A DNA stretch of 64,000 nucleotides, taken from contig NZ_JAGGKQ010000004.1 of the NCBI RefSeq assembly GCF_017873815.1, positions 124,001-188,000 on the forward strand, written 5' to 3'. This DNA is from Halorubrum alkaliphilum (GTDB taxonomy: Archaea > Halobacteriota > Halobacteria > Halobacteriales > Haloferacaceae). Shown piece after piece: positions 2,965 to 49,208 of the stretch. The notes under the pieces were generated by a model. The model saw nothing but the letters and a program-made list of their open reading frames with translations, had not been told where the DNA came from and ran no database searches. Made by a program: the position numbers and the translations under genes. Positions within the stretch are counted from its first letter, which is position 1. Each line of letters begins with the position of its first letter.

Positions 2965-3045
2965 ATGACACGAAACGATCGTGGTCGTTCGGAGGATAGA
3001 GCAAGTCGCCTCACGGCGGCTGGCCGGGAAATTCGCCGAACGTAA
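2965..3045 (+). other. Possible 26-codon leader ORF overlapping the leuA-type start
   Basis: An ATG at 2965 lies about 31 nt after a TTTATAG box at 2931-2937, so it is the first start codon on the expected transcript. It encodes an Arg-rich 26-residue peptide ending at TAA 3043-3045, in a different frame from the synthase gene, whose GTG (2981) lies inside it. It could be a regulatory leader of an amino-acid biosynthesis gene or a chance frame. Confidence 0.3.
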
Positions 3046-24076: not shown

Positions 24077-24480
24077 TCGGGAGTAGGTCTCGCAATACGG
24101 TTTGGTAGTTGTTTATAAGTGGATTAGTGGTGTTGCTGGCGGCTGTTTATAAGTAGATGGTGCTGTGATGAACGGCTCCACTTCTCCAGCTGTTCGTTTA
24201 TAAGTGGTTAGCGACAAATCGTCGGTGAAGACTTCCAAAGCCCCAGCCTCGCCGGAACGGCGCTTAAAGCGCCGTTCCGGGTTCCCTCGCGCCGTCGTCG
24301 CCGGCGCTACGCGCCGGCTGCCAGAGGGACCTTCGGTCCCTCGCGGTTCGCGCCCTTTTAAGTGCGCGAACCGGGGCGCGCCACCGCGGTGTTCATTTAT
24401 AAACGATCGTCGCAGCCGCTCACAGTCCTTTTAAATACGATCACGTTGCTGCCGATTTGAGAGACCCACTCCCGGCATCG
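24077..24480. repeat. Composite palindromic repeat, copy A
   Basis: About 400 bp with strong similarity to copy B at 44376-44926. It begins with three boxes TTTATAAGTGG (24112), TTTATAAGTAG (24146) and TTTATAAGTGG (24197). Four hairpins follow: 24252-24280 (12-bp arms CCGGAACGGCGC around TTAAA), 24300-24318 (GCCGGCG arms), 24324-24342 (GAGGGACC arms around TTC) and 24345-24372 (GGTTCGCGC arms). It ends with a conserved tail carrying TTTATAAAC (24396) and TTTTAAATAC (24429). No coding frame is conserved between copies. It could be a non-autonomous mobile element, a structured RNA locus, or both. Confidence 0.85.
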
Positions 24481-24640: not shown

Positions 24641-24665
24641 AAGTGGGACCGCCCGGATTCGAACC
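24641..24665 (-). repeat. Partial second copy of the tRNA-Pro 3' end
   Basis: A 25-bp exact copy of 24743-24767, that is, the T-loop/T-stem half and acceptor 3' strand of tRNA-Pro plus 3 nt of its flank, lying 102 bp downstream of the real one in the tRNA reading direction. It looks like one side of an attachment-site pair. The 77-bp spacer (24666-24742) includes a hairpin with arms TGCTGCTGC/GCAGCAGCA next to the tRNA. Confidence 0.8.
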
Positions 24666-24745
24666 TCACTCGTTCCGCGTCGCTCCACTCCCTGCTTCGA
24701 ATCCGCTCCATTGCTGCTGCTCGCGGAGTTGCTCGCAGCAGCAAG

Positions 24746-24816
24746 TGGGACCGCCCGGATTCGAACCGGGGTCACGGGCACCCAAGGCCCGGAGTATACC
24801 ACTAACCCACGGTCCC
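24746..24816 (-). tRNA. tRNA-Pro (anticodon TGG)
   Basis: On the minus strand a 71-nt cloverleaf: acceptor GGGACCG...CGGTCCC with discriminator A, D-arm with TTAGTGGTA, anticodon arm CGGGC-CTTGGGT-GCCCG giving anticodon TGG, and T-arm around GGTTCGAATCC. No CCA is encoded, as usual in haloarchaea, and no intron is present. A CGCTTTAGCG element about 29 nt upstream is the likely promoter. Its 3' end is partly duplicated at 24641-24665. Confidence 0.94.
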
Positions 24817-44375: not shown

Positions 44376-44926
44376 TCGGGAGTGGGTATATCGATACGGT
44401 GTGGTGGCTGTTTATAAGTGGGATAGTGGTGTTGTTGGCGGCTGTTTATAAGTAGATGGTGCTGTGGTGAACAGTTCCACATCTCTAACTGTTCATTTAT
44501 AAGTGGTTGAGTACGGATCGTCGGTGAACACTTCCAAAGCCCCAGCCTGCTCCGGTCGAGGGGCTCGCTGCGCGCTCAAAAGGGCGAGCATAGCGAGCCC
44601 TTTTGAGTGCTTGCGTCACCCGTCTTCCCGGAGCAGGCTGCCCCTTTGAGCCCCACCCCACACAGCACCCGCACCTCACGCCTCCCCAGCCTCGCCGGAA
44701 CGGCGCTTAAAGCGCCGTTCCGGGCTCCAGCGAGAATCGAAGATTCTCTGGCAGCCGGCGCGGAGCGCCGGCGACCTCGCGCCGTCGGTTCGCGCCCTTT
44801 TAAGGGCGCGAACCGGGGCGCGCCACCGCGGTGTTCATTTATAAGTGGTCGTCGCAGCCGCTCACAGTCCTTTTAAATACGATCACGTTGCTGCCGATTT
44901 GAGAGACCCACTCCCGCCGTCACTCA
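44376..44926. repeat. Composite palindromic repeat, copy B
   Basis: About 550 bp matching copy A at 24077-24480. Boxes TTTATAAGTGG (44411), TTTATAAGTAG (44445) and TTTATAAGTGG (44496) keep the 34- and 51-bp spacing of copy A. The CCGGAACGGCGC hairpin, a moved and inverted hairpin module (44732-44775), a perfect 11-bp hairpin GGTTCGCGCCC/GGGCGCGAACC (44787-44814), another TTTATAAGTGG (44838) and TTTTAAATAC (44871) follow. A 144-bp extra module (44549-44692) is inserted relative to copy A. No conserved reading frame; no transposase nearby. Confidence 0.85.
44549..44692. mobile_element. 144-bp palindromic module inserted in repeat copy B
   Basis: Absent from copy A. It is bounded by a 9-bp direct repeat ccccagcct (44540-44548 and 44684-44692), of which copy A has one (24241-24249). 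It contains an outer inverted repeat GCTCCGG (44549)/CCGGAGC (44628) and a strong hairpin CTCAAAAGGGC (44575)/GCCCTTTTGAG (44597). The direct repeat could be a target-site duplication or the result of slippage. Confidence 0.6.
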
Positions 44927-45002
44927 CGACTGCGCCTGTACTGACCGCAGGAAAAAGTGTCATTTCTATGGATTTCAACAGTCCCGATTCATCCTAATTC
45001 CG

Positions 45003-48860: not shown

Positions 48861-49208
48861 TTTCACCAGTTCAAGTGCCCAAAATCCTCAAATACACTTC
48901 CACCGAGCCTAGTGAACTACCCCTGCCTACTGCGTCCTCAGAAATCTTCGATTTCTGATGTGCGAACGAGAGCTTGCTCTCGTTAACGCTACTCGGCTTC
49001 GGCCTGCGTTGCTCCTTGAGGAAGGGGGCTTACCGCCTGTAATCAGCTAAAAGAAACTCGTCCGGTAGTGTTACCGGCGCACATTCCGAATGGCCGTAGC
49101 GACATCGCCAGCCACGGAAACGTGCTCGCCACCCGCCAAACGTAACCAGTTCCAATTACTGTACAAGCAGAATAGCTAAATAGGCTCCATCAATACGTTG
49201 TATCACTC
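48861..49208. other. Gene-free region with hairpins and a dispersed 29-bp repeat
   Basis: Two perfect hairpins, CAGAAATC-TTC-GATTTCTG (48939-48957) and AACGAGAGC-TT-GCTCTCGTT (48965-48984), resemble the hairpins in the composite repeats. At 49021-49049 begins a 29-bp sequence (gaagggggcttaccgcctgt...) that recurs with three differences at 53660-53688. This could be the decayed end of an insertion sequence. The rest, to 49208, holds the tupA promoter (CTAAATAG near 49175). Confidence 0.55.

Follow-up and report, generated by a model that had tools for sequence, protein, structure and literature searches.

Two sites in a 64,000-nucleotide stretch of the Halorubrum alkaliphilum genome (contig NZ_JAGGKQ010000004.1; the whole analysed stretch is called the window) raise the question of whether a palindromic cassette has been inverted and moved within a repeated element. 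Direct reading of the first site, at 24297-24342, gives GTC-GCCGGCGC-TAC-GCGCCGGC-TGCCA-GAGGGACC-TTC-GGTCCCTC, and of the second, at 44732-44775, GAGAATC-GAA-GATTCTC-TGGCA-GCCGGCGC-GGA-GCGCCGGC-GAC. The reverse complement of the second can be aligned with the first from end to end, and the two lie on opposite sides of an 11-mer, CTCGCGCCGTC, which is 5' of the module in the first copy (A; 24286-24296) and 3' of it in the second (B; 44776-44786). The original prediction had these letters and coordinates right. It also held that three positions of the small stem had changed on both arms with pairing kept; the paired change is there, but more than three positions differ, GAGGGACC being a stem of 8 bp and GAGAATC one of 7 bp. 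Retained are GAG/CTC and the loop, TTC/GAA; the inner part is swapped and one pair is gone. The window holds 23 triloop hairpins whose stems are 7 bp or longer; five simulated sequences matched to it in dinucleotide composition had 9-18. A chance origin of the match is ruled out because the hairpins are perfect and the sites lie within homologous elements. An isolated 9-bp triloop hairpin, TCAGAAATC-TTC-GATTTCTGA, is also found outside both elements, at 48938-48958.

Each site lies in a copy of a non-coding, hairpin-rich element found in Halorubrum-type haloarchaea. Its recurrent layout runs, in order, through the inner terminal repeat CGGGAGTGGGTCTC; a left arm, usually 154 bp long, in which TTTATAAG boxes occur; the core CAAAGCCCCAG; hairpin 1, which is variable; the linker CTGCCCCTTTGAGTCCCACCC, with CTCCCCAGCCTCG as its end; hairpin 2; the 11-bp spacer (termed X); another hairpin; and the right arm. 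Copy A, delimited by direct reading and by its homologous copies, occupies 24078-24476 on the plus strand between the inner terminal inverted repeats CGGGAGTAGGTCTC and GAGACCCACTCCCG. Hairpin 1 and the linker are missing from it, and a junction CAAAGCCCCAGCCTCG is read directly at 24235-24251 (plus strand); in copy B, CCCCAGCCT is present at both edges of the missing stretch, whose loss is consistent with direct-repeat deletion. A hairpin search places hairpin 2 of copy A, CCGGAACGGCGCT-TAA-AGCGCCGTTCCGG, at 24252-24280, and this is followed by X and then, still on the plus strand, by a double-hairpin module in plus orientation, GTC-hpA-TGCCA-hpB-GC, that with its two final bases extends over 24297-24344. 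Its hpA (24300-24318) has an 8-bp stem and a TAC loop, and its hpB (24324-24342) has the 8-bp stem GAGGGACC and a TTC loop. Copy B, also between inner terminal inverted repeats, spans 44377-44916 on the plus strand and retains hairpin 1, with the core CAAAGCCCCAG, and the linker CTGCCCCTTTGAGCCCC (44535-44656), as well as hairpin 2 (44695-44723), all plus strand. Its full module, at 44729-44775, is in minus orientation, AGC-hpB-TGGCA-hpA-GAC, with hpB (44732-44748) having the 7-bp stem GAGAATC and hpA (44754-44772) an 8-bp stem; their plus-strand loops are GAA and GGA, respectively.

Comparison of all copies revealed that the module, GTC-hpA-TGCYA-hpB in 45-51 nt, occupies fixed places, or slots, two of which flank X: S1 on its 5' side and S2 on its 3' side. 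With inserts taken by their flanks and no structure required, all 23 modules in S1 are minus and all 13 in S2 are plus, the captured inserts at L243 and L165, which are not modules, being left out of the count; neither slot was found in both orientations, as an invertible cassette would be. The other slots are much the same: S1' is plus in 6/6, S3 minus in 5/5 and S0 minus in 11/12, where the one exception (L158), bearing an S2-type hpB stem and 3' flank, is probably misassigned. Modules at places inside hairpin 1 likewise have a single orientation each. S1 and S2 are filled or empty independently of each other, and every one of the four combinations is represented in this genome: three loci (L010, L015 and L040) have both S1 and S2 filled, in inverted relative orientation, six (L023, L025, L026, L031, L038 and L043) have both empty, and others have S1 only or S2 only. 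Copy A, with its S1 directly 5' of X empty, is S2 only; copy B, with its S2 directly 3' of X empty (GCCGTC^GGTTCGC), is S1 only. A pairwise comparison of the two therefore gives the appearance of an inversion accompanied by a switch of side, and no flip is needed.

That a single cassette was inverted and carried across the 11-mer in one lineage, by a recombinase or a hairpin-acting transposase, is accordingly very improbable. Its appeal lies in the two window copies taken alone and in two Y1_Tnp (PF01797) matches encoded in the genome, candidates for acting on hairpins, one of which carries an interrupting stop. However, flipping would be expected to produce wrong-way modules, and none was found: orientation scored over genomic copies, as the original prediction had proposed, was fixed in all 36 S1 and S2 modules, and the claim that one cassette had turned and the suggestion that a recombinase had worked on it are both contradicted. 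The loci carrying both modules also speak against it, as do the S1 modules of other Halorubrum. In this genome the S1 hpB stem is GAGAATC, but in 10 of the 11 S1 modules read in other Halorubrum loci it is a perfect GAGGGACC, the stem found in S2 of this genome (L124 has it with one mismatch); the change is therefore one between lineages. Direct reading disclosed no conserved target or crossover motif adjoining the modules, and the 5' flanks outside GTC differ by slot (CCGTC, GCGAG, GGGCA, GTGGC, GCCTC). Nor did the hairpins have next to them a conserved target or foot oligonucleotide of the kind expected for REPINs and the IS200-IS605-derived PATEs, and by reading only, no ORF adjoining the two copies was recognised as a recombinase.

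The favoured explanation, which we regard as highly probable, is that of a dispersed MITE-like element with fixed slots for modules, in which stems would have stayed perfect through template switching. In the ancestors each slot would most likely have been filled once or a few times, and the filled and empty states would then have spread as the element was amplified and its copies recombined ectopically or underwent gene conversion. A filled site differs from an empty one by a clean insert, with no duplication in its flanks. The modules might instead be autonomous mini-elements that still transpose into the carrier, like the double-hairpin elements of fungal mitochondria, and such behavior would suit their clean entry, with no target duplication, into six or more slots and in both orientations. 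This is nevertheless unlikely: every exact CCGGCTGCCAGAG site checked falls in a carrier locus, with no free-standing module among them, and the single orientation of each slot points to a small number of old insertions, not to continuing movement.

The carrier itself looks MITE-like, its outer ends being like those of an IS5-family element. It has inner and outer terminal inverted repeats and is too short for a transposase; no ORF of at least 90 amino acids lies within 24109-24476 or 44377-44916. The outer end of copy B, GGATTTCAACAGTCCC (44970-44985, minus strand), has two mismatches to GGCTCTGTTGAAATCC, the end also carried by an IS5-family element. At a further locus of this genome, L044, the outer ends are GGCTCTGTTGAAATCC, flanked by TTATAACT and TTATAATT, which are alike at 7 of 8 bases; no target duplication is seen at L019 or L023. 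The right outer segment of L044 resembles the end of an element (L241) with an IS5-family transposase (NF033579, 1e-43), and carrier and transposase-bearing element thus have ends in common. The IS6 family, a first guess from the end sequence, was dropped because the element with the same ends encodes the IS5-family enzyme. The flanks of L044 are separated by 1474 bp here, and in most of the nine relatives compared the gap is no more than about 55 bp, which supports an insertion in this lineage, although the stretch absent from the relatives exceeds the element in size and defines no precise empty site. An empty site was also sought at pcna, where 20 of 21 relatives lose synteny on the downstream side; L066 alone still matches as far as 44281, a little short of copy B's outer end, and is without the element. 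Mobility of the carrier in the manner of a MITE would fit these ends.

The element is abundant and widespread. A genome search with 251 bp around the first site returned 92 matches, and the linker pattern has 55 matches in this genome, occurs in 49 of 52 genomes of the genus, at up to 193 per genome, and is found in 52 of the 87 genera sampled across the order; among the matches listed in a scan of named genomes were Halorubrum records and one uncultured archaeon. With genes called by a home-made gene caller, 16 of 34 element loci lie between convergent genes, compared with 11 of 58 window gaps (p=0.008). The literature search found no published description of the family. A phage origin was set aside, there being no phage match and short plasmid matches in three haloarchaeal records only, as were conserved G-tracts (quadruplexes), whose positions, in an informal look, were mismatched at a frequency similar to that of the remaining positions. 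Other haloarchaeal families also have the hairpin-1 core, in the form GAAAG..CTTTC there and CAAAG..CTTTG in Halorubrum; in one such family it reads GAAAGCCCC...CGGCCCCTTTCAGTCCCACCC. At L254, a locus of another haloarchaeal family, hairpin 1 encloses a two-hairpin module (TCGTTCGAAAGA...CGTGATGACGAGAGAGC...) closely similar to the ones within hairpin 1 of Halorubrum L018 and L031. The core linker of other families, TTTCARTCCCAC (L248-L297), resembles by eye the end of haloarchaeal CRISPR repeats. Elsewhere in the window, the 3'-end stretch of a tRNA-Pro gene (24745-24816), at 24744-24772, is repeated about 100 bp away at 24641-24669, a pattern as at old integration sites, and a leuA-Halobacteria RNA (RF03001, 68 bits) is found at 2985-3037.

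The stems of the modules vary in matched pairs. Counting compensatory changes, again a check that the original prediction had named, bore it out: in the 30 distinct modules compared (S1, S2 and S0 inserts taken by flanks, a few without a readable linker or hpB omitted), Watson-Crick pairing holds for 458 of 466 pairs, with two or three pair types at hpB positions 4-6 and hpA positions 6-8. The outer stem of hairpin 1, which covaries strongly, shows paired variation likewise across 137 copies. Hairpins are perfect in 218 of 238 cases, a figure that is biased upward because hairpin searches require pairing. Triloops, moreover, are found in both orientations in the same slot and on the same stem (TAC/GTA, TTC/GAA). 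Loops of the GNA/TNC type are in excess, at 116 of 193, with a nominal p of 1e-54 that is not relied on, the copies being related.

The covariation thus stands, but it does not establish strong structural constraint, which had been offered as its cause. Loops are found flipped, and by distinct context there is no significant difference between G-U and A-C mismatches. In four sets totalling more than 5,500 pairs, the G-U/A-C counts are 6/6, 12/39, 12/15 and 1/6. No G-U excess is seen on the plus strand, and none on either strand is significant once shared contexts are collapsed. For hairpin 1 the excess of A-C over G-U (39 against 12) arises largely at one position and becomes 16 against 10 by distinct context (p=0.33), and on these counts a minus-strand RNA may exist. 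It is rather doubtful that the elements are genes for a large structured RNA whose fold, under selection, produced the paired changes. The inter-hairpin linkers are conserved while the stems change in pairs, the core recurs across families and TATA-like TTTATAAG boxes lie upstream of the hairpins, all as such genes might have. Yet nearly all hairpins are perfect, with so few plus-strand G-U pairs, which speaks against this reading, and same-slot loop flips should not be tolerated by an RNA with functional loops. Rfam searches gave no match at the gathering threshold for the window elements, nor any up to E=1 for six element loci.

Template switching would account for these features directly. 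From the pattern, it appears that DNA polymerase switches template between the arms of a palindrome, leaving identical arms and an inverted spacer, and such switching would explain perfect stems with triloops in both orientations; the loop flips and mismatch counts fit it at least as well as they fit selection on RNA. Template switching reportedly homogenises inverted-repeat arms and inverts the spacer (PMC8604942), and hairpins reportedly arise and persist through it (PMC8794818). Both predicted features, arms that are identical and spacers that are inverted, are seen here; what those papers treat is a mutational mechanism, and what is described here is an element family.

More speculatively, and with no great confidence, the hairpin-1 core could be an old haloarchaeal DNA-structure element in which perfect palindromes are kept at fixed places while the sequence is free to change, and the nested modules a separate class of archaeal mini-element. 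If true, the family would document in nature either template switching or selection acting on DNA hairpins. A family of many copies makes it possible to separate template switching, through arm homogenisation and loop inversion, from structural selection. It is important to emphasize that two copies of a mosaic repeat can falsely suggest cassette inversion, and that a wider set of copies corrects this.

Among known systems, the MITEs, PATEs and small mobile repeats (SMRs) of Haloquadratum walsbyi are likewise haloarchaeal, non-coding, multicopy palindromic elements nested in others, and the SMRs and PATEs also lack a target duplication (PMC3119063). Their homogeneous families are described as consisting of near-identical copies, whereas stems here change in matched pairs and the modules occupy fixed slots; inverted terminal repeats of the SMR type are not a feature of the modules (PMC3119063). 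The hairpin elements of fungal and sponge mitochondria are alike in being short, intergenic, sometimes double and in some cases G+C-rich, with variable loops, but the sponge elements reportedly have conserved stems with substitutions mainly in the loops, whereas stems here change on both arms, and, unlike the mitochondrial double-hairpin elements, the modules occur only inside a larger carrier (PMC2800124). REPINs, which are supposed to depend on Y1-type transposases, are also intergenic paired palindromes in which compensatory changes are common; they differ in their conserved REP foot and RAYT neighbour, neither of which is shown for the present elements, and, unlike the modules described here, are not restricted to slots in a carrier (PMC3116915).
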